Source: Parvivirga hydrogeniphila
GTDB lineage: Bacteria > Actinomycetota > Coriobacteriia > Anaerosomatales > Anaerosomataceae
Length of the DNA stretch: 64,000 bases
Assembly (NCBI RefSeq): GCF_023371205.1
Contig: NZ_JAMCCO010000001.1
Coordinates: 430,662 to 494,661 of the forward strand
Direction: 5' to 3'
Shown here one piece after another: positions 10,371-32,083 of the stretch (the first letter of the stretch is position 1; each line of letters starts with the position of its first letter). A model generated the notes under the pieces. That model saw only the letters and a program-made list of their open reading frames with translations, was not told where the DNA came from and did not search any database. The translations under genes and the position numbers were made by a program.

Positions 10371-10467
10371 GGAGGCGGATGGGTCCTGGTGGGCTCCGCG
10401 GTCTTCAAAACCGTCGTGGGGCGTGAAGAACGTCCCGGGTGCGTTCGATTCGCACACGCCTCCGCCA
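10371..10467 (+). tRNA. selC: tRNA-Sec (anticodon TCA)
   Basis: 97 nt including an encoded CCA. The acceptor 5' strand GGAGGCG pairs with CGCCTCC, followed by discriminator G and CCA. The anticodon loop CTTCAAA gives anticodon TCA at 10405-10407, which reads UGA. The D-stem is of the six-pair tRNA-Sec type with the same single T-C opposition I recall from E. coli selC. The long variable arm is GGGGCGT paired with ACGTCCC around a GAAGA loop, and the T-arm is GTGCG-TTCGATT-CGCAC. The eighth acceptor pair appears to be a G-A mismatch, which is odd for an 8+5 bacterial tRNA-Sec. Confidence 0.95.
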
Positions 10468-11425: not shown

Positions 11426-12439
11426 GTGGCTGACGAGAGCTTCGGCACGCCTGAGATCCTCACCGACAAGCCCGTGATCGGCATCAGCGCGTGCCTGTAC
11501 GACTGCCCCGTGCGGTACAACGGCAAGCGCTTCGATGCGGTCTCGCGTCTCGGTCGCGAGAAGGGCGGCTTGCGCTTCATGCCCGTGTGCCCCGAGTGCA
11601 TGGCCGGATTCGGGGTGCCGCGCGACCCGATCCACCTCACCGGCCCAGGCAAGGACGTGCTCGCTGGCACCGCTCGCGTCGTGAACCGGCATGGCCGCGA
11701 CGTCACCGCCGACCTGGTCGCGGGAGCGCAGGCGTGCGCGGACGCGCTCGACCGGGCTGGCGTGCGCGTTGTCATCCTGAAAGAGGAATCGCCGTCATGC
11801 GGCCTGCTGAAGACCCGGGTCGGGAACGGGCAGCGCGAGCAGCGCGTGAAGGCCGCGGGCGTCTTCGGCGCGCTGCTCGTGCGCAAGGGCTGGTTCATCA
11901 TTCCCGACGCGGCATTCGACTCGCCGCTCAAGTGGTGGGACTGGCGTCGCCGTATGCACGCGTGGCTGTGGTTGTCGGCTCGCTCGGTGCGAACGAACGG
12001 CGAGCTTTCTGACGCGTGGCACGTGGTGAAGTTCATCGTGCAGGAGACGCAGCGCGCGGAAGCCGACGCCATCGGCCGCGCGATCGCTGGGCTGCCGCGG
12101 CACGCTGCCGCGGAGGAGATCGAGGCCGTCCGCGCGCGGATGCTCGACGCGCTCCGCGCGCCCACGACGCCGCAGCGCGCGCTCGCGGCGATGTGGAAGG
12201 CGTACACATACCACCGCAAGCGCGGTACGCTGGAAGGCGTGGATCTGCACGAACTGACAGTGCGCTCCCCCGAGGTGCGGCGCAATGCGACCGCGCTCGC
12301 CCAGGAGCTGCTCGTGCTGGAGCGCGTCTCGTTCGAGAACGACCTGCTCTTCGCGCCGAGCCCGGTGCTGTACCGCGAACGGCGGCGCGTGCGGGCGCGC
12401 GACGAGGCGCTCGGCAGGACGCCGGACAGGAAGGAGTGA
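11426..12439 (+). CDS. DUF523 (TudS-like) plus DUF1722 protein
   Basis: 337 residues. The GTG at 11426 follows GGAAGGAG at 11412-11419. The N-terminal ~160 residues are DUF523, with conserved Cys motifs 'ISACLYDCPVRYNG', 'PVCPECMAGFG' and 'KEESPSCG'. Members of this family characterised as thiouracil desulfurase (TudS) bind an iron-sulfur cluster with three such Cys. The C-terminal ~170 residues match DUF1722 ('MWKAYTYHRKRG' near the middle). The two-domain fusion is a known architecture. The substrate here is unknown. Two bases separate it from the nitroreductase, so they are likely an operon. Confidence 0.85.
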   Translation: MADESFGTPEILTDKPVIGISACLYDCPVRYNGKRFDAVSRLGREKGGLRFMPVCPECMAGFGVPRDPIHLTGPGKDVLAGTARVVNRHGRDVTADLVAGAQACADALDRAGVRVVILKEESPSCGLLKTRVGNGQREQRVKAAGVFGALLVRKGWFIIPDAAFDSPLKWWDWRRRMHAWLWLSARSVRTNGELSDAWHVVKFIVQETQRAEADAIGRAIAGLPRHAAAEEIEAVRARMLDALRAPTTPQRALAAMWKAYTYHRKRGTLEGVDLHELTVRSPEVRRNATALAQELLVLERVSFENDLLFAPSPVLYRERRRVRARDEALGRTPDRKE

Positions 12440-12441
12440 CC

Positions 12442-12954
12442 ATGGACGCCATCGAGGCCATCATGACGCGGAGGAGCATCCGGAAGTACACGGACGAGCC
12501 GGTCTCGCCCGAACATGTCGAGACGCTGCTCAAGGCCGCCATGGCCGCGCCGTCGGCAGGCAACCAGCAGCCGTGGCGCTTCGTGGTGCTCACCGAGCGC
12601 GAGCGCCTGGACGCTGCGGCGGAGACGACGCCGTACGGCGCGATGCTGCGCGAGGCGCCGCTCGGCATCGTCGTGTGCGCGGACACGCGCGATCTGAAAC
12701 ACCCGCAGATGTGGCAGCAGGACTGCTCGGCCGCCGTCCAGAACGTCTTGCTCGCTGCGCACGCACTCGGGCTTGGGGCGGTGTGGCTCGGCTTCTGGCC
12801 GAAGCTGGAGCGCGTCGAGCCGCTCAAGGCCGTCCTTGGGCTGCCGGAAGGCGTCGAGCCGCTTGCGGTCATCGCGATCGGGCATCCCGCCGAGACGAAA
12901 CCGCCGGTGGACCGCTTCGACCCCGAGAAGGTCCGCTACGAGCGCTGGTCGTGA
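12442..12954 (+). CDS. Nitroreductase-family flavoprotein
   Basis: 170 residues with AAGGAG upstream of ATG 12442. The N-terminus 'AIMTRRSIRKYTDEPV' and 'AAPSAGNQQPWRF' are the FMN-binding signatures of small nitroreductase-like oxidoreductases. 'GLGAVWLGFWP' and 'AIGHPAE' are typical late motifs. It would be an FMN/NAD(P)H-dependent enzyme of the cytoplasm with unknown natural substrate. It sits between the DUF523 gene (2-bp gap) and a small membrane protein gene (6-bp gap). Confidence 0.9.
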   Translation: MDAIEAIMTRRSIRKYTDEPVSPEHVETLLKAAMAAPSAGNQQPWRFVVLTERERLDAAAETTPYGAMLREAPLGIVVCADTRDLKHPQMWQQDCSAAVQNVLLAAHALGLGAVWLGFWPKLERVEPLKAVLGLPEGVEPLAVIAIGHPAETKPPVDRFDPEKVRYERWS

Positions 12955-12960
12955 GGCGGC

Positions 12961-13314
12961 ATGGGCGCGCGAGGCCCGTACGGGCGCATCGTCAACAACT
13001 TCTTGCACGACATGGCGACCGGCACCTGGGCCGCGTGCGTCCTCGTCATCGCCGTGCTCGACCCGCGTGCAGCAGCGGCGCCTCATGAGGCTGCCGTCGC
13101 GCTTGCCGACGCGATGCGTGCGGTGTTCTGGCTGCTCACAGGCGCGCTCGCCGTCATCGCCGTCACCGGCGGGATCCGGCTCGCGTACTGGCGCCAGCAG
13201 GCCGCTCCTGAGGAGGTCGCGGCGAAGCGCACGGCGCTCGTCGTCAAGCACGTCGCCTTCCTGCTGATCTACGGCGCCGGAACCGCATGGGCGTGGCTTG
13301 CCGTGCGAAGCTAG
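12961..13314 (+). CDS. Small membrane protein, three predicted TM segments
   Basis: 117 residues. Hydrophobic stretches at about residues 20-38, 55-72 and 92-110 suggest three membrane helices, with a charged loop ('RLAYWRQQAAPEEVAAKR') between the second and third. I do not recognise a family. It starts six bases after the nitroreductase stop, so it is probably the last gene of that operon. It may be a membrane partner of the flavoenzyme; that is inference only. Confidence 0.7.
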   Translation: MGARGPYGRIVNNFLHDMATGTWAACVLVIAVLDPRAAAAPHEAAVALADAMRAVFWLLTGALAVIAVTGGIRLAYWRQQAAPEEVAAKRTALVVKHVAFLLIYGAGTAWAWLAVRS

Positions 13315-13403
13315 TCCGGCGGGCAGGCAGGTTGTGGACCGGGCTCGCGGCGAATACTATACGTGGGACTGAACCCCGCCTGGCGACGCCGCCGAGGAGC
13401 CAC

Positions 13404-14411
13404 ATGACCGGATTCGAGCGCTACTTGGACCGCACCGCGAAGAAGTTCGACGAGTACCTGCTCACCTTCTTCGAGGACGGCTCGCATCCGGACATGACCC
13501 GCTACCTGTACGAGCCGCTCCGGAGGTTCTCCGACAACGCCGGCAAGCGGCACCGGCCGCTCATCTGCCTGCTCGCGTGCGAGGCGGTGGGGGGCGACCC
13601 TCAGCGCGCGTGGCCGGCGGCGGCCGCCATCGAGCACTTCCACACCGCAGCGCTCATCCACGACGACATCGAGGACTCCTCGCTCACGCGGCGCGATGTG
13701 CCGTGCATGCACGTCACGGAGGGCGAGGGCCTCGCCATCAACGCGGGCGACCTCGCGCTTTCGCTCGTCTGCGGGACGGTCGTGGACGACGAGGGGCTTG
13801 ACGACGCCACGAAGCTTCGGGTGCTCGGCGAGCTCGTGTCGATGACGACGCGGACCATCGAGGGCCAGGCGCTCGACATCGGCTGGGCGCGGGACGGGCG
13901 GTTCGACCTCACCATCGAGGACTACCTCGTGATGGCCAACCACAAGACCGCCTTCTACTCCGGCGGGGTGCCGCTGGCCGTCGGCGCGATCATCGGGGGT
14001 GGTACCGAGGAGCAGATCGAAGCACTTCGCGCGTTCGGCATGGCCGCAGGGCTCGCGTTCCAGATACAAGACGACGTGCTGAACCTGGTGGGCACCAAGG
14101 AAGCCACCAAGAAGGACTTCCGGAGCGACATCACGGAAGGCAAGCGGACGCTCGTCGCGATCCACGCGCTTGCGAACTCGCCGGAGCGCGAGCGGCTCGT
14201 GGAGCTGCTCTCCGCGCACACGACTGACCCTGACGAGCTCGCGGAGGCGGTCGCGATCATGGAGCGCGCGGGCTCGATCGAGTACGCGAAGCGCTACGCG
14301 CGCGACCTCGTGGAGCACGCGAAGGCGGGGCTCAAAGCCGCGCTTCCGCCGTCGCGAGCGCGCACGCTCCTGCTGTCGATGGCGGACTTCTTCGTGAAGC
14401 GCGCGGCGTAG
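13404..14411 (+). CDS. Polyprenyl diphosphate synthase
   Basis: 335 residues from ATG 13404, with GAGGAG nine bases upstream; longer starts add unrelated residues. It is an isoprenoid chain-elongation enzyme using allylic diphosphate and IPP. The first Asp-rich motif is 'HDDIEDSSLTRR' (residues ~87-98). The second is 'QIQDDVLNLVG', where the last Asp of DDxxD is Asn. 'KRHRPLICLLACEA' near residue 45 carries the IPP-binding basic residues. The residues before the first motif do not let me judge the product chain length. Candidate products are geranylgeranyl or longer diphosphates for lipids or menaquinone. Confidence 0.9.
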   Translation: MTGFERYLDRTAKKFDEYLLTFFEDGSHPDMTRYLYEPLRRFSDNAGKRHRPLICLLACEAVGGDPQRAWPAAAAIEHFHTAALIHDDIEDSSLTRRDVPCMHVTEGEGLAINAGDLALSLVCGTVVDDEGLDDATKLRVLGELVSMTTRTIEGQALDIGWARDGRFDLTIEDYLVMANHKTAFYSGGVPLAVGAIIGGGTEEQIEALRAFGMAAGLAFQIQDDVLNLVGTKEATKKDFRSDITEGKRTLVAIHALANSPERERLVELLSAHTTDPDELAEAVAIMERAGSIEYAKRYARDLVEHAKAGLKAALPPSRARTLLLSMADFFVKRAA

Positions 14412-14487
14412 GGCGCTTCTTCGGGTACGAACCTTGGGACGGCGGCCGGTGAGCCGCCCCGGCTCGCGTTCGTGCAAGGAGGACGGC

Positions 14488-15678
14488 ATGCGTGCGTACC
14501 CGATCGCTGAAGGCATCGACTGGGTCGGCGCCATCGACTGGAACCTGCGCGACTTCCACGGCTACGAGACACCGTTCGGCAGCACCTACAATGCGTACCT
14601 CGTGCGCGGCGCCGAGAAGATCGCGCTCATCGACACCGTGAAAGCGCCGTTCGTGCCGGAGCTTCTGGCGCGCGTCTCGAGCGTCGTGGACCCGGCCGAC
14701 GTGGACCTCATCGTCGTCAACCACGTCGAGCCGGACCACAACAGCGGCCTCCGCGACGTGATGGCGGCCATGCCGAACGCGCGTGTGGTCGCGTCGCCGT
14801 CCGGCGTGAAGGGCGTTGCCGAGTACCACGATGGGCTTGCGGTCGACGCCGTGACTGCCGAAGACGTGATCGACCTCGGTGGCCGCACGCTGCGCTTCCT
14901 TCCGATGCCGATGGTGCACTGGCCGGACTCGATGTTCACCTACTGCGCCGAGTCCAAGACGCTCATGCCGAACGACGCATTCGGGCAGCACTTCGCTTGC
15001 GAGGAGCGGTTCGCCGACGAGCTGGGACTCGATGAGGCGCTCGAGCAGCTCGGCATCTACTACGCCAACATCCTGCTGCCGCTCGGTACGCAGGTTGCAA
15101 AGGCGGTCGACAAGGTGCTGGCGACGGGCTGGGAGATCGACGTCATCGCGCCCTCGCACGGCGTGGCGTGGCGTGGCGCCGACATCGCGGCAGCGATCGA
15201 GCGCTACCGGCGGTGGACGGCGGGCGAGAAGCGTGACAAGGCCGTGGTGGTGTACGGCACGATGTGGGGCTCGACGGCCGCGCTCGCGGCGCGTGCGGTG
15301 GACGGCCTCGCGCAGGCCGGCGTGGAGGCGGCGCTCTACGACGTCGCCGCGACGCCTATCGCGCACCTGGCGTATGAGCTGCTGGAGGCCAAAGCGCTCG
15401 TGCTCGGCTCGCCGACCTTGCACCACGGCATGCTCTACCGCGTGAGCGGCCTTCTGACCTACCTCGAAGGGCTGCACCCGGCAGGACGCCTCGCCGCGAC
15501 CTTCGGCTCGTACGGTTGGGGCGGCGGCGCGATCAAGCAGATGCGCGAGCGGCTTGAGAAGGCGGGTTTCGAGATTTATGGCGAGGACCTCGGGGTGAAG
15601 TTCCGTCCGACCGCGGCCGACCTGGAGGCCGCCGAAGCGTGGGGCCGCAGCATCGGCGAGGCGCTCAAGGCGCGGTAA
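14488..15678 (+). CDS. Flavodiiron protein (A-type flavoprotein, FprA/ROO family)
   Basis: 396 residues from ATG 14488 preceded by AAGGAGG. The N-terminal ~250 residues are a beta-lactamase-like diiron domain: 'VNHVEPDHNSG' (HxExDH), 'MVHWPDS', 'NDAFGQHFA' and 'APSHGVAWR' supply the iron ligands. The C-terminal ~145 residues are a flavodoxin domain ('VYGTMWGSTAALA', 'GSPTLHHGMLYRV', 'GSYGWGGGA'). Such enzymes reduce O2 to water or NO to N2O and protect anaerobes. No rubredoxin domain is fused. The gene ends 24 bp before the integrase relic. Confidence 0.93.
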   Translation: MRAYPIAEGIDWVGAIDWNLRDFHGYETPFGSTYNAYLVRGAEKIALIDTVKAPFVPELLARVSSVVDPADVDLIVVNHVEPDHNSGLRDVMAAMPNARVVASPSGVKGVAEYHDGLAVDAVTAEDVIDLGGRTLRFLPMPMVHWPDSMFTYCAESKTLMPNDAFGQHFACEERFADELGLDEALEQLGIYYANILLPLGTQVAKAVDKVLATGWEIDVIAPSHGVAWRGADIAAAIERYRRWTAGEKRDKAVVVYGTMWGSTAALAARAVDGLAQAGVEAALYDVAATPIAHLAYELLEAKALVLGSPTLHHGMLYRVSGLLTYLEGLHPAGRLAATFGSYGWGGGAIKQMRERLEKAGFEIYGEDLGVKFRPTAADLEAAEAWGRSIGEALKAR

Positions 15679-15702
15679 GACGCCGGTGGGCTGGGGACAG
15701 CG

Positions 15703-15858
15703 GCGCGCCTGCTGAAGTCGGGTCACGACATCCGGACGATCCAAGAGCTGCTCGGTCACAAAGACGTGAGCGCCACGATGATCTAGACGCACGTACTGGC
15801 TCGCGGGGGTATGAGGCGCGAAGCCCGTTGGACTGCTTGTGACATCCCGGCTGCTTGA
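15703..15858 (+). pseudogene. 3' relic of an integron-type tyrosine recombinase, catalytic Tyr codon is TAG
   Basis: Read from 15703, the frame encodes '[19 protein letters not shown]' and 'KDVSATMI', then TAG at 15784-15786, then 'THVLARGG', ending at TGA 15856-15858. This matches the C-terminus of tyrosine recombinases, where the LLGH motif and 'TMIYTHV' surround the nucleophilic Tyr. The wording '[24 protein letters not shown]' is closest to integron integrases (IntI) in my knowledge of the family. The stop falls exactly on the catalytic Tyr codon. Everything upstream is gone, replaced by the flavodiiron gene. Confidence 0.75.
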
Positions 15859-15909
15859 AGAGCGGGGGCATCGTAGCTGCTTGCGCAGACTGGAGATGCT
15901 CTCGCGGTT

Positions 15910-16577
15910 AACGTCCCCGGTAGTGGTGCACGAAGGCCCGGCCGCCTGGCACGAGGCGGCCGCTGCTCCATCCTCGAGGGTGATTGAAGCCCGAAGACGA
16001 GGAGGAGGCAGCGGCCAAGGACACGATGGACCGGCTGGCATGGCTGCGCAAGACGCTTAAGGACGCCGATCCCGACCTGATGCGCGAGATGCTGCGCGTG
16101 TTCGCCGAAGAACCGATGGGTGCCGAGGCCGATGCGCTCTGCGGCGCCAGCCACGGCGAGCGTAGCGACGAACGCGTGCCGAGCGGGCGCTCGTGGCCGT
16201 GATCGCCGAGCGCTGCGTGCGCGGGGTCTCGGCCAGACGCGTGGACGGGCTGGCGAAGACGCTCGGCATCGAGGACATCTCGAAGTCGCAGGTCTCTCGC
16301 CTGGCTCGTGCGCTCGACGAAGAGATCGCCGCCTTCAAGCATCTTCCCGAACCGCGAGAGCATCATCCGTCTGGTGGGCCCGGTGCTCTCAGGGCAGCAC
16401 GACGAGTGGCAGGCGAGCCGCCGTTGCATGTCGATCGAGCCGCTGGAGAAGACCATGCAGCCGATGCTCGTGGTGGAGGAAGGACTCGATCAGGAGGTGG
16501 TGCCCGCGCTCATGGCTGGCTGAGCGACAAGCTCGAGGTCGGAGCAGAGGGCCTCATACACCACTTGACGGGACGTG
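15910..16577 (+). mobile_element. Internally deleted IS256-type (mutator) element, copy 1
   Basis: Imperfect ~26-bp terminal inverted repeats lie at about 15910-15936 and 16552-16577; both contain CGTCCC and AGTGGTG cores when read inward. Inside are broken pieces of an IS256-type transposase: an N-terminal part ('RLAWLRKTLKDADPD', 'SAEADA'-like 'GAEADALCGASHGERS'), a middle part ('GVSARRVDGLAKTLG') and a C-terminal part in another frame ('RESIIRLVGPVLSGQHDEW'). The catalytic core between the middle and C-terminal parts is missing. About 127 bp are also missing relative to copy 2 at 28042-28790. It cannot make a functional transposase. Confidence 0.75.
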
Positions 16578-16604
16578 CCGGGGGCTCCATAGCCTCCTAC
16601 CAGC

Positions 16605-16649
16605 TAAAACGCCCCTTCGAGTATCTCCGAAGAGACACTAAAGGGGCGT
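16605..16649 (-). terminator. Rho-independent terminator of tRNA-Val
   Basis: On the minus strand a 9-bp stem (ACGCCCCTT with AAGGGGCGT; plus-strand arms 16609-16617 and 16641-16649) encloses a small inner hairpin and is followed by TTTTA. It lies just downstream of the minus-strand tRNA-Val, as expected for an intrinsic terminator. Confidence 0.75.
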
Positions 16650-16660
16650 CCTGTCATCCA

Positions 16661-16735
16661 TGGTGGGCGATACAGGATTTGAACCTGTGACTTCCTTCTT
16701 GTAAGGGAGGCACTCTCCCGCTGAGTTAATCGCCC
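16661..16735 (-). tRNA. tRNA-Val (anticodon TAC)
   Basis: 75 nt with encoded CCA. The acceptor stem is GGGCGAT/ATCGCCC, the D-stem ACTC/GAGT, the anticodon loop CTTACAA (anticodon TAC, plus-strand 16701-16703) and the T-arm ACAGG-TTCAAAT-CCTGT. The anticodon stem CCTCC/GAAGG has one C-A mismatch, which is unusual but leaves the fold intact. The defective IS256 derivative ends 84 bp away on its 3' side. Confidence 0.93.
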
Positions 16736-16949
16736 GTTCGGCGTTCGCGCGTGACTGCCATTCTAGCAGGGCGCGGCGAACGTGCGCAGGACGGCGAGCC
16801 GCTGACCTGCCCCGGTGCAAGTACTTCGAATCACTTGCGCCCGAAGCGTTCCTCTCCACCGTGGGCGGGGTAGAACCACAACATGGAGCGTCGTCAAGCG
16901 CCCGCGACGCTCGGACATACGATGGAGGGCGCGTGGAGGTGGGAAAGGC

Positions 16950-17708
16950 ATGGCAGACCTCACTGGAAAGGTGGCGCTCGTGACCGGGGCTGCTTCCGGC
17001 ATCGGTCGGGAGAGCGCCCTCGCCTTCGCTCGAGCAGGGGCCAAGGTGGTCGTCTCGGACGTGATGGTCGAGGGCGGCGAAGAGACCGTCGCCATGATCA
17101 GGGACGGCGGCGGCGACGCTATCTTCGTCGAGTGCGACGTGTCGAAGGAAGACGACGTCAAGAGGCTCGTCGCGCGGACCATCGAGGCCTACGGACGTCT
17201 GGACTGCGCGCACAACAACGCCGGCATCGAGGGCACGCCGGCGCCGATCGTGGAGTGCACCGAGGAGAATTGGGACCGTACGCTCGGCATCAATCTCAAA
17301 GGCATCTGGTGGTGCGCGAAGTATGAGATCCCGGAGATGCTTAAGGTAGGCGGAGGCGCTATCGTCAACACGGCATCCATCGCCGGCCTGGTCGCGTTCC
17401 CGGCGCTCCCGGCCTACACAGCATCCAAGCACGGCGTCGTGGGACTCACGAAGTCGATCGCGCTCGATTACGCCACGCAGAACATCCGGTGCAACGCGGT
17501 CTGCCCGGGCGTCATCCACACGCCGATGGTCGATCGCTTGACGAACGAGGATCCCGAGGCGCTGAAGGGCCTGCAGGCGTTGGAGCCGATCGGTCGCCTC
17601 GGCAAGCCTTCCGAGATAGCCGATGCGGTCGTATACCTCTGTTCTGATGAGGCGTCGTTCATCACCGGCGCTGCGTTGCCGGTGGATGGCGCGTACGTCG
17701 CGCAGTAG
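16950..17708 (+). CDS. Short-chain dehydrogenase/reductase
   Basis: 252 residues; ATG 16950 is preceded by GGAGGTGGGAAAGG, and upstream in-frame starts add sequence unlike the family. It is a classical SDR Rossmann enzyme: 'VTGAASGIGRE' (NAD(P)-binding TGxxxGIG), 'HNNAGIEG' (NNAG), 'NTASIAGL' (catalytic Ser region), 'YTASKHG' (YxxxK) and 'NAVCPGVIHTPM'. The Asp after the second strand ('VVSDVMVEGG') favours NAD(H) over NADP(H). The substrate cannot be told. It appears monocistronic, with a strong hairpin after it. Confidence 0.93.
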   Translation: MADLTGKVALVTGAASGIGRESALAFARAGAKVVVSDVMVEGGEETVAMIRDGGGDAIFVECDVSKEDDVKRLVARTIEAYGRLDCAHNNAGIEGTPAPIVECTEENWDRTLGINLKGIWWCAKYEIPEMLKVGGGAIVNTASIAGLVAFPALPAYTASKHGVVGLTKSIALDYATQNIRCNAVCPGVIHTPMVDRLTNEDPEALKGLQALEPIGRLGKPSEIADAVVYLCSDEASFITGAALPVDGAYVAQ

Positions 17709-17752
17709 GCGGCAGAGCACGGTCACGACACGCCTGCTCCGCCACAAAGCGA

Positions 17753-17784
17753 GACCGGCCGGTCCCTCCGGGGGCCGGCCGGTC
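17753..17784. terminator. Bidirectional hairpin between the SDR and cold-shock genes
   Basis: A perfect 10-bp stem (GACCGGCCGG at 17753-17762, CCGGCCGGTC at 17775-17784) with a 12-nt loop lies between two convergent genes. There is no T-tract; it probably stops or stabilises both transcripts. Confidence 0.6.
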
Positions 17785-17804
17785 CGTATGCGCTCTGGCA
17801 CGGC

Positions 17805-18008
17805 TTAGAGCGGGCGCACCTGCGTGGCCTGCTGCTTGCCGTTCTGGCCAGTGGCCTCCGTGAAAGACACGGCCTGACCCTCGTCGAGGGTCTTGAAGCC
17901 CTCGCCCTGGATCTCGGAGAAGTGGACGAACAGGTCGTCGCCACCCTCGCGCTCGATGAAGCCGTAGCCCTTGTCAGGGTTGAACCACTTGACTTTACCT
18001 TCAGCCAT
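17805..18008 (-). CDS. Cold-shock domain protein (CspA family)
   Basis: 67 residues from ATG at 18008, the standard Csp length. '[17 protein letters not shown]' carries RNP-1 and 'DLFVHFSEI' carries RNP-2, the RNA-binding aromatic patches of the OB-fold. It acts as an RNA chaperone. The upstream leader is about 110 nt if transcription begins near the -10 box at 18121-18126; long leaders are typical of cold-regulated csp genes. Confidence 0.97.
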
Positions 18009-18120
18009 TCCAAACCTACCTTCCGCCCTAACGCGGGGCACAACAAAATGACGTGACCGACCGCCAGAATGCGGTGTGTCACGTCGCAATCCTGCGAGCC
18101 CCTCTGGCTCGCCTGCAGGG

Positions 18121-18126
18121 AGTATA
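18121..18126 (-). promoter_or_regulatory. Probable -10 box of the cold-shock gene
   Basis: TATACT on the minus strand, preceded by GC as in an extended element; I see no good -35. It would give a ~110-nt 5' leader for the csp gene. Confidence 0.4.
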
Positions 18127-18131
18127 GCAGA

Positions 18132-18264
18132 TTACGCGCCAGCGTGTGCGCCGGGCTCCTCCAGCCAGCGGAGATGCTCCTCGATCCGCTCGGCCGCACC
18201 CTCTTCGGCGTCGGGCTGCGCCGAGCATCTCGATGCGTCGCAGAATCCAGTCGTCCTGGTACAC
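18132..18264 (-). pseudogene. Internally deleted DUF6483-like gene
   Basis: From the GTG at 18264 the frame begins 'MYQDDWILRRIEML', as in DUF6483-type proteins. After ~15 codons the coding signal moves to another frame, 'EEGAAERIEEHLRWLEEPG', ending at TAA 18132-18134. The middle of the gene appears lost together with a frame change, leaving two ends. Function is unknown even for intact members. Confidence 0.4.
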
Positions 18265-18311
18265 AGCGCTCCCGTCAGAGGACCGCCTGCAAGTCTAGTC
18301 CCGCGACCGCT

Positions 18312-18512
18312 TCAACCCTGTCCCACGTGCTTGGCGAACCCGCCGAAGTGCACGAGGTCCACGCCGTCCAGGTCGAACGTCGGCAGCCGGTGGCTGATCG
18401 TCTCGGCAGCCTGTGGCACTTCCTCGCGGATGATCGCCCGCATGCGCCTCAGCACCGCCTGCATCTCGGGCGGATACGCGCTGATGTACTCGTCGATCGC
18501 GTCGGCCGCCAT
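18312..18512 (-). CDS. Truncated DUF1801 (YdhG-like) protein
   Basis: 66 residues. 'AIDEYISAYPPEMQAVLRRM', 'ETISHRLPTFDLDG' and 'HFGGFAKHVG' match the N-terminal half of DUF1801 proteins, which are normally 110-150 residues. The sequence stops just where the family continues into its second half, so it is probably nonfunctional. It begins 10 bp downstream of the methyltransferase stop on the same strand. Confidence 0.55.
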   Translation of the reverse strand: MAADAIDEYISAYPPEMQAVLRRMRAIIREEVPQAAETISHRLPTFDLDGVDLVHFGGFAKHVGQG

Positions 18513-18521
18513 CGCTCCTTC

Positions 18522-19064
18522 TCACCGCACCCCGGGCACGAGGCGCTTCGTCCTGCGCATGTACTCGCTATACCCGGGCAGCTCGCCGGCCAGCCAGCGT
18601 TCCTCGGCCAGCGTGCGCGCCACCAGGCCCGCCATGCCGAGCGCCACCGCTATCCACGTCCATCGCGCCCCCGCGAAGAGCGGCAACCCGATGTAGAGGA
18701 GCGCCAGCCCCAGGTAGAGCGGGTGCCTGATGACCGAGAAGATCCCCGTGTCCACGAGCCGGTGCCCGTCGTGCGTCTCCACGGATGCCGAGAACGACCT
18801 GCCGAGCGTGGTGACGCCGACCCACCTCAGCCCGGCGGCCGCCGCGACGAGCAGGGCGCCCGCCACCATCCCGGGCGTGCGCGGCTCGGCGGTCCCGAGC
18901 GCCAGCTCCGCGATCGGTCCCGCGAAGCACGCGAGATACGGCACCCAGACCGCCCAGAACGTCCACTCGCGCCGCGCGCGCGTGGTGGGCGCGCCTGATA
19001 CCGCGAAGGCGGCGCGGTCGATAAGCGTGTAGGCGACGATCAGCACGATGTATGCGCTCTGCAT
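18522..19064 (-). CDS. Isoprenylcysteine carboxyl methyltransferase-like membrane protein
   Basis: 180 residues, several hydrophobic helices. The C-terminal half has the signature of the ICMT/PEMT-like family: 'DTGIFSVIRHPLYLGLALLY' and 'EERWLAGELPGYSEYMRRT', the SAM-binding RHPxYxG and the E/GY motifs. In bacteria these methylate small lipids or unknown acceptors at the membrane. It follows the serine-hydrolase gene by 12 bp on the same strand and is probably co-transcribed. The substrate is unknown. Confidence 0.85.
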   Translation of the reverse strand: MQSAYIVLIVAYTLIDRAAFAVSGAPTTRARREWTFWAVWVPYLACFAGPIAELALGTAEPRTPGMVAGALLVAAAAGLRWVGVTTLGRSFSASVETHDGHRLVDTGIFSVIRHPLYLGLALLYIGLPLFAGARWTWIAVALGMAGLVARTLAEERWLAGELPGYSEYMRRTKRLVPGVR

Positions 19065-19076
19065 GCGCGCGTTCTC

Positions 19077-20656
19077 CTATCGGTCGGTCTCGGTCGTCGC
19101 GGTGCCGTCAACCGGCGCAAGGAGCGCGGTGGCGATCAGCGTCGCCGCGCCGAGCCCGGCGGCTGCGGCAGCCCAGTCTGCCACGAACGGCAGCACCGAG
19201 GAAAGCAGCAGGTGCGGCTGCGCGGCGCTCCACGCGAGCGCGTCGATGACGAGCGTGCCGAGTGCGAACAGGAGCGCGCGCCTGTAGCGTGCCGCGGCCG
19301 AGAAGGGCGCGATCCGACGGATTCCGCGACGCACGTCGCGCGCCAACCGACCGAGCTGCAGAAACGAGGCAAGCGCGATGACGCCGGCAAGCGCGATGAC
19401 GCCGGCAAGCGCCCGGAGGAGGTTCTCAGCCCAGACGATGCGCGTGAACTTCACGGAGCCCAGTCCGGCGTACGAGGCCCAGTCTCCGAGGATGCGGCCC
19501 ATCATCGGCCAGCTGCGCTGGCTGTTGGTGAGGATGACGATGCCGTCGCCCGAGGACGGCACCGCCTGGAAGTGGGTCATCCAGCCATTGCCCTGCCCGC
19601 CGTGCCAGACCGACGTCCGACCGTCGGGAAGGCGCTCGATGAAGTGGCCGAGGCCGTAGCTGTCGGCGACGGCGCCGAAGATCCCGGTGACGTCGGTCTC
19701 AGCGGCGTGCATCGCGCTGATGGCGGTCGGGCTCAGCACGTCCTGGTCGGCGGCGTGCTCGCCGGTCATCTCGGCGGCGGCGAAGCGCGCGATGTCCTCC
19801 ACCGGCGCGAGCAGCCCGCCGGAGGCCTTGGCCGGATAGACGTAGGGCGCCACCGGCTCGCCGCGCAGGTCGTAACCGGTCGGGAAGTCGGGGCGCAGGC
19901 GCTCCTCCCACACGAAGGTCGACTCGCGCATGCCGAGCGGCTCGAGCACCTCGGCCCGCATGTACTCGGCGTACGACCGGCCGGAAACCTCCTCGATCAC
20001 GATCTCGAGCAGGTCGAAGCCGGGGTTCGAGTAGAAGAAGCCCGCGCCGGGCTCCCGGAACAGGCGCGCCTGCGCCGCGAGGTCTTCGCGCAGCGTGGGC
20101 ATCTCGGCGCCAGGCTCGTACTGCGCCAGCACGTCGCCGAGCGGCATGCCCGCGGTCTGGCTGAGCAGCCGCCTCACGGTCACCTCCCGCTCGGCGTACG
20201 GCGTGTCCGGCAGCTGGAAGCCACCGAGATAGTCCTGCACCGGACGGTCCAGATCGACGAGGCCGTGCTCGGCCAGGCGCATGACGCCCCACGCCGTCAG
20301 CGACTTGGAGATGGACTGCGCGCGGCAGACCGAATCGACCGTCATCGGACGCGCTTCCTCGACGTCGGCCAGGCCGTATGCGGCCGACCACACGACCTCG
20401 CCCTCCCCACGAGCGCGATGCTCGCACCCGGGACGTCGTAGCGCTCCATGAGGCGCGGTACCGCCTCGTCGAGGTGCGCGGTGAAGGCGTCGCGTGACCG
20501 CCAGCGCGGCGCGCGGGCGTCGGCGCAGCCGTGCAGGCCGAGGAGCGCCACCGCCAGGAGCGCACCCACGGCGCGGACGATCAGAGCCCCGGCACGTCCG
20601 TGCTGGGAGCGCGCGGTCGTGTCGCGATCGGTCGCTCGCCTCCGCGATGCGGACAT
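19077..20656 (-). pseudogene. Beta-lactamase-family serine hydrolase lipoprotein, one-base frameshift near 20403
   Basis: From ATG 20656 (GGGAGGGAG upstream) the protein has a signal peptide with lipobox-like 'LLGLHGC' and runs to 'DVPGASIALVGRA'. The family sequence then continues one frame over as 'EVVWSAAYGLADVEEARP'. A single missing G in GGGGAGGGC restores one frame. Beyond that the hydrolase is complete: 'SISKSLTAWG' (SxxK nucleophile), 'YSNPGFDLLE' (YxN) and 'HGGQGNGWM', followed by C-terminal membrane segments. It is either a recent pseudogene or a sequencing error in a G-rich run. An 18-bp tandem duplication (19377-19412) lies in the C-terminal TM region. Confidence 0.75.
19377..19412. 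repeat. 18-bp tandem duplication inside the serine-hydrolase gene
   Basis: GATGACGCCGGCAAGCGC occurs twice in direct succession (19377-19394, 19395-19412). In the minus-strand reading it adds a second 'ALAGVI' to a membrane helix without breaking the frame. Confidence 0.85.
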
Positions 20657-20740
20657 GCGCTCCCTCCCCGTGCGGTTCCTGCCGCGGTCCCACGGAATCG
20701 TATACCATGTCCGACAACCATCCGGGGCCGGCACCCCGGC

Positions 20741-20956
20741 ATGGAGCAGAACGTCTACCGCGTGCGGATCGGGTCGGACGCGAAGTTCATGGACCGCTTC
20801 TCGCGCCTGTCACCCAAGCGCGCCGCTGCGCTCATCTATAAGCAGATGAAGGACCTGCTGCCGTCGCAGCGCGCTAAGAGCCCTCGTCACGCTGCCATTC
20901 GAAGCAGAAGTCCTGCTCCTCCGTCGCCGGCCAGAGCACGCGCGAGGCCGGAGTGA
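20741..20956 (+). CDS. Possible small protein, unknown
   Basis: 71 codons from ATG 20741. The first ~46 residues ('MEQNVYRVRIGSDAKFMDRF', 'KRAAALIYKQMKDLL') look protein-like with balanced charge; the rest overlaps the minus-strand Cys-rich gene and looks like noise. No clear Shine-Dalgarno sequence is seen. It may be a truncated gene whose 3' end was lost. Confidence 0.3.
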   Translation: MEQNVYRVRIGSDAKFMDRFSRLSPKRAAALIYKQMKDLLPSQRAKSPRHAAIRSRSPAPPSPARARARPE

Positions 20957-21113
20957 TCACGAGCGCCAGCTGCGGGATTCCGATGGGGGCGCGCCGCCGG
21001 CAGCTGCCGTTCCACCAGTAGCGGCATGAGCCGCACGACATAGCGTCGGGCTTCGCCTCGGTCGTGCCGTCAGTGCTCCCCCTCCGCAGGTCGTTGTCTT
21101 CCGGCGACACCAC
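20874..21113 (-). CDS. Small four-Cys protein, possible metal-binding domain
   Basis: 79 residues; GGAGGAGGTG overlaps the GTG start at 21113. The core 'CGSCRYWWNGSCRRRAP' followed ~30 residues later by 'WPATEEQDFCFEW' is a recurrent pattern in short bacterial proteins, with four Cys that could bind a zinc ion or cluster. Function is unknown. It lies 63 bp downstream of the DUF2239 gene on the same strand. Confidence 0.65.
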   Translation of the reverse strand: MVSPEDNDLRRGSTDGTTEAKPDAMSCGSCRYWWNGSCRRRAPIGIPQLALVITPASRVLWPATEEQDFCFEWQRDEGS

Positions 21114-21176
21114 CTCCTCCTTCCCCCGGACACGGGGCTACGGTAGAAGGGTAGCCGATACGTCTGACACGATGAG

Positions 21177-21740
21177 CTAGCCGGCGTCTTCGGCATCGAA
21201 AGCGTCGGCGGCGAGCTTGGCCGAGAACCGAGCGACGTCTTCGGGCCACGCGGCCAGATGGGACTCGAAGCCCCGCTCGTCACCCGCGAACAACGAGCGG
21301 CACGCCTCCTCGAAGCCGACCAGGTTGCCGGCCATCGCTGTCATGAAGCGGAACGCGGCCTCCCGCGAGCGCCTCACGCGGTCTCCCCGCTCGTTCTGTC
21401 GACGCGCCTGATCGACGAGCCGCCGAAGCGCGGCCGACGCGCCCGATGGTTGCGCGTTCAGCCACTCCCAGTGACGGGGCAGCAGCGTGACCTCGCGCGA
21501 GACGACGCCGAGCCGCGGTCTCCCCGGACCCTTGCGTTCCGGGGCCTCCGCCGGCGCGCCGGCGGACGACGCTTCGCGCCGATCGATATCGACCTGCTCG
21601 CCGGTGACGTCGTCGAACACGAGCAGGGTTCGTGGATCGTCACGCTCCAGCAGCTCGGCGATAGCGGCGGCGATCTCAGCTCGGCCGCCCGAGGCGACCG
21701 CCTCGGCGTCGGCGAACAGGGTAAGCGCTTGCTCGGTCAT
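21177..21740 (-). CDS. DUF2239 family protein
   Basis: 187 residues from ATG 21740 with AGGAG upstream. 'LLVFDDVTGEQVDID' near residue 40, 'GRPRLGVVSREVTLLPRHWE' near residue 75 and 'RFMTAMAGNLVGFEEACRSLF' in the C-terminal half match DUF2239, a short cytoplasmic family without assigned function. A well-formed promoter flanked by two inverted-repeat operators lies immediately upstream, so expression is probably controlled by a repressor not encoded next to it. Confidence 0.85.
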   Translation of the reverse strand: MTEQALTLFADAEAVASGGRAEIAAAIAELLERDDPRTLLVFDDVTGEQVDIDRREASSAGAPAEAPERKGPGRPRLGVVSREVTLLPRHWEWLNAQPSGASAALRRLVDQARRQNERGDRVRRSREAAFRFMTAMAGNLVGFEEACRSLFAGDERGFESHLAAWPEDVARFSAKLAADAFDAEDAG

Positions 21741-21775
21741 GTGTGCTCCTCGGCATCTGGTTACGATGTCGCTGA

Positions 21776-21820
21776 TTATTACCCGGGTGAAACTATGTTG
21801 TCAATATCACCAGGGTGAAA
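21776..21820 (-). promoter_or_regulatory. Sigma-70 promoter with two operator repeats upstream of DUF2239
   Basis: On the minus strand TTGACA (plus positions 21799-21804), exactly 17 bases, then TAATAA (21776-21781). Two similar motifs of form TCACC-NN-GGTGA lie at 21779-21790 (overlapping the -10) and 21807-21818 (upstream of the -35), spaced 28 bp. Each is nearly palindromic, and together they resemble a dimeric repressor's paired sites. Confidence 0.65.
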
Positions 21821-21853
21821 AGGGAGACGCCGCACGTCGGTGCTCCGCCGCGC

Positions 21854-21925
21854 CTACTTGGGAGGCGCGTCCAGCTCGACGCCGTGCTCCGCGTGACTGA
21901 AAGTACCGAACTGCTGCCCATGCCC
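21854..21925 (-). pseudogene. C-terminal coding scrap
   Basis: A minus-strand frame ends 'HGQQFGTFSHAEHGVELDA' and then 'PPK' before a TAG at 21854-21856. It looks like a genuine C-terminus, but it has no start and no recognisable family; the preceding sequence lacks coding character. The rest of 21821-21998 holds nothing I can identify. Confidence 0.25.
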
Positions 21926-21998
21926 TGACCTCGAATCCGTACCTGGCGCTTGGGTGCATCAACGGCACGGTCGCGCGACTTCTGATCCACACGTCGCG

Positions 21999-22385
21999 CT
22001 ATCGGTTCATCCAGGTGATCGAGAGTTGCAACACGCTGGCCGTTGCGACCCAGACGAGATAGGGCGTGAGGGCGAGAGACGCCAGCCGGGAGTACGGCCA
22101 GAAGGCCACCATGCACCAGACGATCATCGCGAGGACGATGAGGATATCGATCGAGGCGAGCGGCAGGTTGCGCAGACCGAACTGGATGGGCGTGAACGCG
22201 AGGTTGGAGACGACGTTGACCGCGATGGGCACGAGCAAGGACATCGGTGCCGTCCCGCGCGCGACGCGGTAGATCATGTAGCCGAAGACCACGATGATGA
22301 CCGGGTAGAGCACGGTCCACACGGTGCCGATGAAGCTGGGCGGAGGCGTCCACGCCGGCTTGGCGAGGCTGTCGTACCAGTCCAT
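21999..22385 (-). CDS. TspO/MBR family membrane protein
   Basis: 128 residues from ATG 22385, with AGGTGGG upstream; a GTG at 22409 is also possible. 'WYDSLAKPAWTPPPSFIGTVWTVLY' contains the TspO hallmark PxWTPP, and five hydrophobic helices follow, with 'VNVVSNLAFTPIQFGL' in the position of the conserved WS/N segment and 'TPYLVWVATAS' near the end. TspO proteins bind tetrapyrroles and related ligands at membranes. It is the last ordinary gene before the mobile-element region. Confidence 0.88.
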   Translation of the reverse strand: MDWYDSLAKPAWTPPPSFIGTVWTVLYPVIIVVFGYMIYRVARGTAPMSLLVPIAVNVVSNLAFTPIQFGLRNLPLASIDILIVLAMIVWCMVAFWPYSRLASLALTPYLVWVATASVLQLSITWMNR

Positions 22386-22555
22386 GCGTCCCACCTGAGC
22401 GCCTCCCAAGACACCGATCCTCCGGACAACCCGGCGATCTCCGACACGTGTTCGACCATCCGCCTAGTCACTATGAGATGAGCGGCCCGAATCCGCATAT
22501 AACGTGGATCACGGCGGGAATGACCCCGCGGCGCCGACATACGGAGGGACCGGCC

Positions 22556-23500
22556 ATGAACGAGTGTACTCACATCGGGCTCGACGTCCACAAGGACACG
22601 ATCTCGGTCGCCGTCTTGCGATCCGGCACGACCGTGATCGCACCCTCGATGATCCCGAGAAGGAGCGGCGTCCGCGTGAAGACCGACCGCATCGACGCGC
22701 GCGACCTCGCGCGGCTCCATCGCGCGGGCGAGCTCACGAGTGTGCGGGTGCCAGGGGCTGCCGAGGAGGCTGTGCGCGACCTCATCCGCGTGCGCGAGGA
22801 GGTCAAGTGCGACCGGCGGATCGCCCGTCAGCGGATCCGGAGCTTCCTCATGCGCTACGGCAAGCGCTACCCCGGCCCGCGCGACGCCTGGTCTCACCGC
22901 TTCGAGGTATGGGCGCGCTCTGTGACCTTCGACAAGCCGCACGCACAAGAGGCGTTCGCCAACCCGCTTTCCGCCAACTTCATCCGCGATGCGCAACTCG
23001 CCGAGATGGGCAAGCGGGTCGAAGAGATCGCGATGACCGAGGCCTTCGCGGCCGACGTCGCCCGCCTCTAGACGTTTCGCGGTGTCGGCACGCTTACGGC
23101 CATGACGATTCTTGCCGAGACGTGCGACTTCACGCGCTTTGCAACGGCAGGCAACCGCATGGCATTCACCGGGCTCCTGCCGTCCGAGCACTCGAGCGGG
23201 GCGAGCAGGCACCAAGGCTCGATCACCACGACGGGAAACCGGCACATCCGCCGCGCGCTCGTGGAATCCGCCTGGGCCTACCGGCACGCCCTTGCCGTGC
23301 GCAGCAAGCTCCGTGAGCGTCTCGAGGGGATGCCGCCTGAGGTCGCCGCCTACTCGTGGGCAGCACAGATGCGGCTGAACGGCAGCTACCGCCGCATCGC
23401 CGCGAGAAAGGGTGCACACACCGCGGTCGTGGCCACCGCACGTGAGCTCTCGAGCTTCGTCTGGGGTCTCATGACCGGCAACCTCGGTCCGGCCCGATAG
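22556..23500 (+). pseudogene. IS110-family transposase with internal deletion and nonsense codon
   Basis: ATG 22556 (GGAGGG upstream) begins 'HIGLDVHKDTISVAVLR', the DEDD N-terminus of IS110-type recombinases. It then jumps directly to 'IAPSMIPRRSGVRVKTDRID', skipping about 55 residues that normally include the 'YEAGPTG' segment with a catalytic acid. A TAG at 23069-23071 interrupts it again. The Transposase_20 C-terminus follows: 'FTGLLPSEHSSGASRHQGS' and 'GNRHIRRALVESAW'. It cannot be active. Confidence 0.85.
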
Positions 23501-23530
23501 TAGACGTCATGCATGCGGGCGGGCGCCACA

Positions 23531-23748
23531 CTCCGGAGAGATCCTCGATGACGTTATTCGACATCAGCAAGCGAGCGCCTAGTTTGAGGCAGGCTCCGGG
23601 CCGACCGAGATGTGGAGTCGAAATCCCTTAGATATCGGCATGGTCGAGCGCCGTTGCCATGTGCCCGTCCGCTGTCACCTACACACCAGAAAAGAGGACC
23701 GTGATCGATCGCGGGTTGACCGGCAATCTCATATCAACGTACGTGTTT
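23531..23748 (+). repeat. Conserved noncoding right end of the IS110-type element, copy A
   Basis: This ~215-bp sequence occurs three times: here, 26596-26806 and 32370-32582 (both reversed). It contains tandem hairpin-forming segments. Copy A is the most diverged and its T-arm-like hairpin is damaged. Conservation outside any protein gene, next to the transposase, suggests a functional RNA or recombination site; for IS1111-group elements the guide (bridge/seek) RNA is encoded in this position. Confidence 0.7.
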
Positions 23749-23796
23749 GGGGATGAGCGGCGAACGAAGTGAGTCCGCTCGATCCCCGGGTTAGAC
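23749..23796 (-). other. attC-like recombination site, interrupted by IS110 copy A
   Basis: Read on the minus strand: core GTCTAAC (plus 23790-23796, fits RYYYAAC), then GGGGATCGAGCGG, a 14-nt spacer, and CCGCTCATCCCC, which pairs with the first arm except for one extra C on the left arm. The site then ends at the IS right end. A one-sided extra base is the typical extrahelical base of attC and gives the orientation. It sits immediately after the stop of the minus-strand mrr fragment, as in a gene cassette. Confidence 0.65.
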
Positions 23797-23797
23797 C

Positions 23798-24295
23798 CTA
23801 CAGATCAACATCCTGTTCGAAATAGTCAGTGTCGATGCGCTGAAGACGTATCGTTCTTGTCACACTCGTACCGACATCATGGTCCATCATGAGTTCCGCG
23901 AGCTTGTCGCCGTCGATTAACACGATGCGCTTCTCAATCATCTTGACGTAGTCTCTTGCCGGGCCGCTGAATTGAGCCGTGGTGATGAAGACTCCCTTGC
24001 GCGCTCGATGACTCTCAAGCGATCCGGCGAACTCCCGGACCTCCTTCTCGCCAACTGTGTTCGCCCACCGCTTGGCTTGGACAACCACTACGTCGAGGCC
24101 AAGCTTATCCTCCTTGATGAAGCCATCGATCCCGCCGTCACCAGACCTTGCTGTCATACTTGCGCTGTCTGCGACAGAGCCCCCGTATCCCATGGCGACG
24201 AGGACATCGAGTACGACTCTCTCGAAGCGAACGGAGTCCATCTCCCGCAGCCTCTCAAGTAGTTGCTCGTGTGCATTCGCATGGACAATCAGTGG
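23798..24295 (-). pseudogene. Mrr-type restriction endonuclease, N-terminus missing
   Basis: The C-terminal nuclease domain is intact: 'FERVVLDVLVAMGYGG', 'SGDGGIDGFI' (catalytic Asp) and 'VVVVQAKRW' (QxK), then 'EVREFAGSLESHRARKGVFI' and 'IDGDKLAELMMDHDVG'. These are hallmarks of Mrr enzymes that cut methylated DNA. The N-terminal winged-helix half is absent: upstream of about 24295 the frame runs into sequence that codes DUF3800 on the other strand. An in-frame start at 24379 exists but adds unrelated residues. An attC-like site follows directly. Confidence 0.75.
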
Positions 24296-24302
24296 GCCCA
24301 CT

Positions 24303-24716
24303 GCGGCCAACCACCTCGAGTTGGTGGACAAGGCGATTCGGACAGCGTTGGCCAAGGCACCGGGCAAGCAGCGCGACAAGAACCTGGTGGTTGTCTATGC
24401 AGATGAGAAGCAGTCGGTTCCAGCTACTGACCTATCCGCAACGATCAAGAAGGCGGTTGAGGCCCGCGGCTACACGCTGCTGGAGGATGTGAACATCGTT
24501 CAATCGTCATGCGCTACGCCGGGAGTCTTGTTGGCGGACGTCATCGCATACCTGAGCATGTGGGTCTATGCCGGACACAAGGCTGCATCAGCTCAGGCGT
24601 CGCTGTTCGACGGTAATCCCGGAAGCGTCCCGAAGCATCTCGAGCAGAAGCTCCATGCGGTCTCCGCAATTCTCGAGCGCGGCAGTGGCGTGTCCTTCGT
24701 TCCCAAACTGAAGTAG
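24303..24716 (+). pseudogene. DUF3800 protein, C-terminal fragment
   Basis: About 135 residues without a proper start. 'NLVVVYADEKQSVPATDLS' and 'GVLLADVIAYLSMWVY' (conserved LADxIAY) resemble the C-terminal half of DUF3800 proteins. The N-terminal half, which carries the first conserved Asp, is missing, cut at the same point as mrr so the two fragments lie head to head. A complete attC-like site starts 15 bp after its stop. Confidence 0.6.
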
Positions 24717-24731: not shown

Positions 24732-24812
24732 ACCTAACCAGCGCATCCAGCAGACGCGGCAAGCGATAGACTGATAGAAGAAGATGGGCGCGCTGCTGAT
24801 GCGCTGTTAGGC
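24732..24812 (+). other. attC-like site 1 (complete)
   Basis: 81 bp. Left core ACCTAAC (24732-24738, RYYYAAC) and right core GTTAGGC (24806-24812, GTTRRRY). Between them AGCGCATC-AGCAG-CGCG on the left pairs with CGCG-CTGCTGATGCGCT on the right. The left arm carries three extra unpaired bases (C, C and A), the asymmetry characteristic of attC and indicating plus orientation. The variable centre is ~30 nt. This is the best-formed cassette recombination site in the window. Confidence 0.85.
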
Positions 24813-26513: not shown

Positions 26514-26595
26514 GCCTAACCCGGGCGTCCAGCAGACGCGGCGCCCGCGATGTAGGGTCGAGTAGGGAGCGTCCGCTGCGCCGCGGCTGAAGCGC
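26514..26595 (+). other. attC-like site 2, interrupted by IS110 right end B
   Basis: Left core GCCTAAC (26514-26520), then a left arm that shares TCCAGCAGACGCGGC exactly with attC site 1, so it is the same site family and orientation. The right arm is GCGCCGCGGCTGAAGCGC, after which the IS right end (AAACACG) begins at 26596. The expected GTTRRRY core is therefore not present here. The 233 bp between the partner gene and this site (26281-26513) hold no gene I can identify. Confidence 0.7.
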
Positions 26596-26806
26596 AAACA
26601 CGTTGATATGAGATTGCCGGTCAACCCGCGATCGCTCACGGTCCTCTCTGGTTCTTCGTCGGTACAAGCGGGCGGGCACATGGGAACGGCGCTCGACCAT
26701 GCTGATATCCGGGGATTCGAACCCCACATCTCGGTCGGACCGGAGCCTGCCTCAAACTAGGCGCGCGCTTACATGAGTCGCATAACGTTATCGAGGATCT
26801 CTCCGG
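26596..26806 (-). repeat. IS110-type right end, orphan copy B
   Basis: It is close to the right end of copy C over its full length and has the intact T-arm-like hairpin, but no transposase follows: at 26807 it is cut by the IS3-type element. It begins with AAACACG directly against an attC arm, like copies A and C. Confidence 0.8.
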
Positions 26807-26879
26807 ATGGGATGCCCCGTCTCTGGTACCAGCCGCAGAGCAGGGCCTCCGATGTCCTGACATCGTAGCGGACGTCGTC

Positions 26880-27715
26880 ACGCTGCGCCCACGGGGTGCA
26901 TCGCGGCGTACTCCTCCGGCGTGAGGTAGCCGAGCGAACTGTGCAGGTGTTCGGTGTTGTGCTCGACCCTGAACCGTTCGAGCATCGCCCGGGCGCGCTC
27001 GATGCTCCAGAACTCGTGCTCATCTCATTCAGGCATTCGTCGCGCAGGCGTGAGTTGAACGACTCGCAGAAACCGTTCTGCCAGGGCTTGCCCGGCGCGA
27101 TGCGGAACGTGTCCGTCCCGATCTCGGCGAGCCAGTCCACGACCTCGGACGCGATGAATCCTCCACCATTGTCTGAACGGATCACCGCAGGCGTTCCGTG
27201 CTCTGCGAACAGCCGCTGAAGCACCAGCTCGACCGCGCCGGCCGTGATCGAGCGGGCGCCGAAGACGGCGAGCGCGCAGCGGGTGGAGACTCATCGACGG
27301 CGGTGAGCATCTTGAACGTCCTCCCGGGACTCGTGGCGTCGCAGACGATGTCGCAGGTCCAGACGTGGTTGCGGTACTCGGCGCTCACGGGCACACCGGC
27401 CCCGATGCGGATCTTGCGTCGGCGCCTGCGCGCCGGGACCGCCAGGTCGTGGTCGCGCCAGATGCGCTCCATGCGCTTGCGGTTCTGGACGAGACCGCGC
27501 CGCCTGAGCGAACGGAAGGCCCGCCTCGAGCCCCACCTGGGCTTGCGGCGCCTGATCTCGGCGATCGCGGCCAGGATCTCCTCGTCGCCTTTCGGGGCCG
27601 GCCCGCAGTCGAGATGCGAGCGCGAGGTTCCCACGACCCAGCACGCCCGTCTGGTGGACATGCCCGCGGCGGTCATCTCGCGCACCGTGTGCCGCTTGTC
27701 CGGTGCGCCGCTCAT
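26880..27715 (-). pseudogene. IS3-type OrfB (DDE transposase), at least two frameshifts
   Basis: It starts at ATG 27715 ('MSTRRACWVVGTSRSHL'). The rve integrase core is spread over three frames: first Asp in 'NHVWTCDIVCDAT', then a shift near 27290-27225, second Asp in 'IRSDNGGGFIA' and Glu in 'NGFCESFNSRLRDE', then a shift near 27020 into 'LERFRVEHNTEHLHSSLGYL'. The catalytic residues survive but no continuous protein can be made. Confidence 0.8.
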
Positions 27716-27983: not shown

Positions 27984-28041
27984 CTCCTCTCCTCGAGGAG
28001 ACCCTAACACTCAGCGTGGTACCGATATCGGGGGGCATCCC

Positions 28042-28790: not shown

Positions 28791-28873
28791 GCCATGCCGC
28801 CGGGACGGGTGCAGACCTACGATGCATCGTGAACCAACCCGTGGACTACCCCCGGTCAGCTTCGCATCTTGGC

Positions 28874-29749: not shown

Positions 29750-29801
29750 GATGCTCCTCTCCGCTTACGGGTGCCTCCGGTGCCGACCTGGTGTGATCCG
29801 G

Positions 29802-32035: not shown

Positions 32036-32083
32036 GCTGTGAACCCCCTGTGTCCACCTGAGAATCTGTGTGACGGGTACGCC

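Follow-up and report, generated by a model that had tools for sequence, protein, structure and literature searches.

A 3' stub of an integron integrase gene beside an orphan cassette array in Parvivirga hydrogeniphila

What is the short integrase-like sequence behind a flavoprotein gene of Parvivirga hydrogeniphila, how did it come to lie there, and does it belong with the attC-like sites found further along the chromosome? The source is a heat-loving anaerobic actinobacterium (type strain Es71-Z0120T, order Anaerosomatales, class Coriobacteriia), and the window, the whole stretch of DNA analysed, comprises 64,000 nucleotides. An earlier note on this DNA had proposed a relic of an integron integrase whose catalytic tyrosine codon became a stop. 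Our analysis leaves very little doubt that a sedentary chromosomal integron lost its integrase here, that the feature is what remains of the 3' end of the integrase gene, and that the array is frozen as orphan cassettes (CALIN).

The upstream neighbor of the stub, the conserved anchor of the integron locus, is an A-type flavoprotein gene, FprA-like (14488-15678, plus strand; Pfam ODP with its beta-lactamase fold, and Flavodoxin_1). In all three congeners searched, the ortholog of this gene is followed by an intact intI on the same strand, after a gap of 91 bp (L060), 124 bp (L058) or 192 bp (L059), and it is with the 3' end of this intI that the relic aligns. The proposal that this chromosome once carried an integron integrase is thus borne out, and what the relatives hold at the locus is an intact IntI, not an unrelated integrase. 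The window aligned to the congener G001 over 11449-15705, a match that stops shortly behind the flavoprotein gene; the alignment resumes at 15704 after skipping about 900 bp of G001, and this break therefore indicates the deletion of about codons 1-272. At the junction (15679-15699), where inspection revealed no clear repeat, what is left of the flavoprotein-intI intergenic region is fused to intI codon ~273. Judged by its position, the relic is evidently the in situ remnant of the intI of this locus.

The arrangement is shared beyond the genus. Among 60 relatives, comparison of coordinates by eye placed the flavoprotein gene and intI next to each other in 12, each of which is one of the 26 members of the family; family members without the adjacent pair carry intI elsewhere or on another contig, or lack it. 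Among 36 named loci with the flavoprotein gene (those of this actinobacterial group among 80 named records), intI lies directly downstream of it in 11, always on the same strand and for the most part in the genomes already counted among the 12, and several of the 36 contigs stop shortly after the flavoprotein gene. For the 25 relative loci in which no intI had turned up at first, the region behind the flavoprotein gene was searched again for stubs, and no match had an E-value better than 0.009. Across 11 loci, the divergence of IntI is correlated with that of the flavoprotein (Mantel r 0.765, reached in 0 of 5000 permutations), as expected if both were inherited together. Two of these 25 loci, L091 (1027-8754) and L074 (10455-14007), display attC sites behind the flavoprotein gene with no intI there; the first cassette-like unit of L091 comprises two small ORFs, which we take to resemble a toxin-antitoxin pair.

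The 3' end of the relic, not its 5' end, faces the array, and the earlier note had concluded that an inversion or a deletion was needed to link the two. A relic that came in this way from a divergently arranged integron would fit the textbook layout, in which intI diverges from the array, as well as the one attC site of the window that is inverted. However, the relatives make such a relocation very unlikely. At E-values up to 0.001, 56 attC matches were found in 10 of the 36 relative loci, all of which had been turned so that the flavoprotein gene lies on the plus strand; every one of the 56 is on the flavoprotein strand, downstream of the flavoprotein gene and, where present, of intI, and the 11 intI genes share this strand without exception. 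Of the attC matches, 21 come from the three loci of the genomes used to build the attC model and 35 from seven other loci. In the native layout, intI thus follows the flavoprotein gene and precedes the array, toward which its 3' end points; the need for an inversion was rejected on this ground, since the relatives share the orientation. With intI on the same strand as the attC array and upstream of it, the relatives carry reverse-oriented sedentary chromosomal integrons. In the three congeners, a common block after the intI stop ends in GTTAG, beyond which the sequences diverge, and this block is a putative attI of the relatives. Such a block was not found in the window: two congener-derived patterns for an attI remnant, searched with up to three mismatches, gave three weak matches against a shuffle mean of 1.01 and one against 0.29, none of them near the relic.

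Profile searches and DNA homology show that window positions 15700-15842 (plus strand) correspond to the final ~47 codons of an intI gene, so that the stub described earlier stands, with bounds slightly different from the 15703-15858 and some 50 codons given for it. Read in frame 1 of 15601-15900, the relic has a TAG in mid-sequence, at 15784-15786, where the three congeners have TAC; it replaces the tyrosine of 'MIYTHV', the catalytic nucleophile of the tyrosine recombinase family, and the stop noted earlier at the catalytic codon is therefore real. After 'THVLARGG', small indels disrupt the frame and the frameshifted remains run to the old stop of the gene, TGA at 15840-15842, not to the frame-1 stop at 15858. 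What survives is the last ~15% of intI: about 85% of the gene, some 272 codons, is missing, including the part that contains the IntI-specific additional domain, and the relic lacks both the catalytic tyrosine and the full catalytic domain of a functional tyrosine recombinase. The TAG, stressed in the earlier note, is one lesion among several and not the defining one, the deletion of ~0.9 kb being disabling by itself, and the landing of the stop exactly on the catalytic codon is probably a coincidence.

In a comparison over 33 codons, the relic differs from the congeners by seven to eight non-synonymous changes, the stop counted, while congeners differ from each other by zero to one; with 33 codons only and the relic's stop included, 7/33 against 1/33 is borderline (Fisher p 0.054), and the excess is suggestive of decay, no more. 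Third-position differences of the relic (11-14) exceed those at first and second positions together (8-9), a pattern that fits a gene that may have stayed functional over much of the period after the species diverged. The same pattern could be taken to mean that the stub was kept for a function, for instance as a remnant regulatory or recombination site, but the period as a working gene before the loss explains it, the frame is broken by the stop and the frameshift, and nothing else suggests use. Retention for a function is accordingly highly improbable, and the stub itself is most likely without function.

Assignment to IntI, rather than to another tyrosine recombinase, was addressed by profile and similarity searches. 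Against NCBIfam, the conceptual translation of the relic scored 53.8 bits with the integron integrase model TIGR02249, ahead of XerC (37.8) and XerD (36.4); the full-protein cut-off of TIGR02249, 265 bits, is out of reach for a stub. The translation also matches Pfam Phage_integrase with 29.8 bits, above the gathering score of 27.1, and this match, together with an integron integrase as the best NCBIfam model, indicates that the resemblance is not due to chance. In BLAST comparisons, identity of the stub to 11 clade IntI proteins is 73-79%, against 53-63% to the pair of Xer-like proteins encoded in the same genome. At the DNA level, it is homologous to intI of G002 and G003 over 15700-15797 (80.6% and 81.6% identity, respectively) and to intI of G001 over 15704-15842 (74.6%), and the congener intI genes cover the whole TIGR02249 profile, 1-315. 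That the stub is instead a XerC/XerD or phage-type fragment merely resembling IntI might be argued from the mere ~40 active-site residues left, which are common to all tyrosine recombinases, and from the match of the XerC profile (1.4e-9); yet the IntI profile leads by 16 bits, the orthologous place holds an intact IntI over the curated cut-off in all three congeners, and both Xer-like genes are still present elsewhere in the genome. Profile ranking, BLAST identities and orthologous position led us to reject this origin as extremely improbable, and the earlier judgement that the wording of the active site is closest to IntI is upheld by the comparison with XerC/D.

The history that we propose starts from an ancestor in which the flavoprotein gene, intI, attI and the cassette array would all have pointed in one direction. 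A deletion of ~0.9 kb would have taken out approximately codons 1-272, and with them most of the catalytic domain, so that the start of the intergenic region now adjoins codon ~273. The stub would then have decayed, by the change of the tyrosine codon to TAG, other amino-acid replacements and indels, unless the stop came first. The remaining array would have been frozen without its own integrase, and IS elements would have invaded it at attC sites. A sequencing or assembly error hiding a gene intact in the living strain is exceedingly unlikely: a single substitution suffices for the TAG and the evidence is that of the assembly rather than of reads, but the 0.9 kb deletion, the stop and several indels occur together, well within a long contig and in an apparent isolate genome, and the attI-like block is missing too. 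One strain of the species was examined, so the deletion may be specific to the clone or the assembly.

Is another integron integrase present? The genome assembly (9 contigs, 1,840,996 bases, 99.99% complete) was searched with the IntI model and gave no IntI over the cut-off. Of its five matches, four are accounted for by two Xer-like genes, which match in two parts each, and the fifth is the relic. IntI may be supplied in trans by a plasmid missing from the assembly.

The array lies in a non-syntenic integron and cassette region (15843-36579), which extends from the relic to the point where synteny with G001 resumes, at 36580. A hand-made attC finder, which returned many doubtful hairpins, was dropped in favor of a covariance model built from 17 congener sites, with no window sequence included. 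This model detected six attC sites at E-values of 1.4e-5 or below in the 64 kb, between 23736 and 35045, the next different match having an E-value of 0.26. All six fall within the non-syntenic block at 15.8-36.6 kb and none scored well outside it; the attC-like sites reported previously are hence genuine attC of the same integron, located at 23.7-35.0 kb. The first (23736-23796, minus strand; 40.4 bits, E 2.7e-9) is inverted relative to the rest, and its R' box is cut by an IS110-type element. The second (24732-24812, plus strand; 58.5 bits, E 1.3e-14) folded into an intact hairpin, and this palindromic site matched the model on the other strand as well. The third (26514-26607, plus strand; 31.6 bits, E 9.6e-7) is interrupted in its R' box by a truncated IS110-type element, and the fourth (32284-32382, plus strand; 39.6 bits, E 4.7e-9) is cut after the GTT of its R' box by the IS110-type element at about 32379-33653. 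The fifth (34455-34543, plus strand; 46.9 bits) has a homolog in G001 (BLAST 34457-34540, 89% over 84 bp), and the sixth (34948-35045, plus strand; 27.6 bits, E 1.4e-5) is the most divergent.

Six attC sites and no other IntI in the genome therefore make this array a CALIN, a set of orphan cassettes: more than the two neighboring attC sites that define one are found, with no integrase nearby, the genome holding the relic and the two Xer-like genes only. The gap of ~5.7 kb at 26607-32284 is wider than the 4 kb that some surveys apply, and strict clustering would split the CALIN. The array is also rearranged. An inverted cassette at 23736-24379 carries a minus-strand Mrr-type restriction endonuclease gene followed by the minus-strand attC, opposite to the other five sites. 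A segment of ~5.9 kb (16600-22460) carries genes for tRNA-Val(TAC) and a short-chain dehydrogenase, has no attC and has no syntenic copy in the three congeners, and minus-strand genes for DegV, patatin, an acyltransferase and TetR lie between attC sites at 28874-32146, with small weak matches only elsewhere in the genus. Searches of 16.6-22.4 kb and 28.8-32.25 kb against the genus gave no syntenic copy, only partial dehydrogenase-like and tRNA matches. The inverted attC and the ~6 kb without attC at 16.6-22.4 kb point to later rearrangements beyond simple loss of the integrase.

Insertion sequences are found behind the relic and at the attC sites. Directly behind the relic is a decayed transposase remnant of IS256/Mutator type (15984-16570, plus strand), with a partial duplicate at about 28055-28800; the Mutator-type assignment comes from a Pfam Transposase_mut match of the 28 kb copy, and that of the 16 kb copy from reading its sequence. 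IS110-type copies, one truncated and all seemingly decayed, occupy 22464-23738, 26600-26807 and 32379-33653, one of them matching Pfam Transposase_20. The first, a decayed IS110-family element on the plus strand, is inserted in an attC R' box and repeats the 32.4-33.7 kb copy. In each of the three cases, the copy starts directly behind the CACGTT of an R' box, which reads ACGTACGTT in the inverted attC, and at the copy at about 32379-33653, the flanks GTT and AGCA jointly rebuild a box complementary to the R'' of the site, TGCTAAC. Relatives of IS1111 are reported to insert at attC ends (PMC11187229), and the IS1111-attC group (ISKpn4, ISPst6) likewise comprises DEDD-type IS located at one end of attC (PMC11187229). 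By contrast, the copies in the window are decayed, share the same position after GTT in all three cases, and belong to either the IS110 or the IS1111 group. Their position after the GTT of R' provides a lead for RNA-guided attC targeting in the order Anaerosomatales.

Decay of this kind is common and well known, and the relic is an unexceptional example of it. Stops, frameshifts or large indels are reported for about one in three intI genes (PMC2426708), and 43% of intI were predicted to be inactive in another study (PMC3108266). Compared with intI pseudogenes generally, what distinguishes the present one is the survival of the last ~15% and the stop on the catalytic tyrosine codon. The closest parallel is found in Xanthomonas, where intI lies downstream of ilvD, a fixed chromosomal neighbor, and was lost by stops, frameshifts and large deletions, while a CALIN remains (PMC12444791); here, by contrast, the phylum is another one, the anchor is an FprA-type flavoprotein gene and intI is in reverse orientation. 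Chromosomal integrons of Treponema share this 'reverse' layout, with intI transcribed toward attI, in the direction of the cassettes (PMC3607928), and T. phagedenis kept attC sites while lacking intI (PMC3607928). They belong to the Spirochaetes, and the relevant sections of that report describe no IntI stub (PMC3607928). The relic is thus one more instance of frequent integrase decay, with the origin of the locus settled.

The occurrence of integrons across the order weighs more than the relic. IntI over the curated cut-off was found in 40 of the 60 Anaerosomatales relatives and in 46 of the 149 genomes of a class-wide sample, where all 47 genomes matching at 1e-60 belong to Anaerosomatales; a sample of the phylum gave 13 of 296 genomes, 11 of these outside the class. 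The IntI-positive genomes are mostly draft or metagenome assemblies, in which contamination is possible in single cases; the shared locus, the single-contig genome G001 and the correlated divergence (r 0.765) argue against it as a general explanation. We consider it likely that Anaerosomatales, a little-studied order of subsurface anaerobic Actinomycetota, possess an ancestral, vertically inherited sedentary integron of reverse layout, anchored in one family behind the FprA-type flavoprotein gene, and that in the Parvivirga type strain the integrase disappeared while the array persisted in a frozen state. If true, this contradicts the view of integrons in Actinobacteria as absent or as recent arrivals. 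In the part of the IntegronFinder 2.0 paper that covers its RefSeq survey, no complete integron is reported in the Actinobacteria of the data set (PMC9024848), and Actinobacteriota are counted among the integron-bearing phyla in a review (PMC8618304). Integrons are therefore not new to the phylum; an order with such prevalence may be. The main text of the paper describing P. hydrogeniphila Es71-Z0120T contains neither 'integron' nor 'integrase' (PMC9686372), and nothing on integrons of OPB41 or Coriobacteriia was found in the open-access literature, which does not by itself establish absence from print. The clade permits comparison of intact, decayed and absent integrases at one fixed site, in cultivated and uncultivated relatives. 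On one contig of another relative (G045, C32, 8241-13035), several partial matches to the IntI C-terminus, one of them with a TGA, lie together with a full intI, perhaps representing a duplicated or decaying integrase. Elsewhere in the window, a selenocysteine tRNA gene is found at 10371-10467 and a molybdenum/tungsten cofactor riboswitch at 45316-45445.
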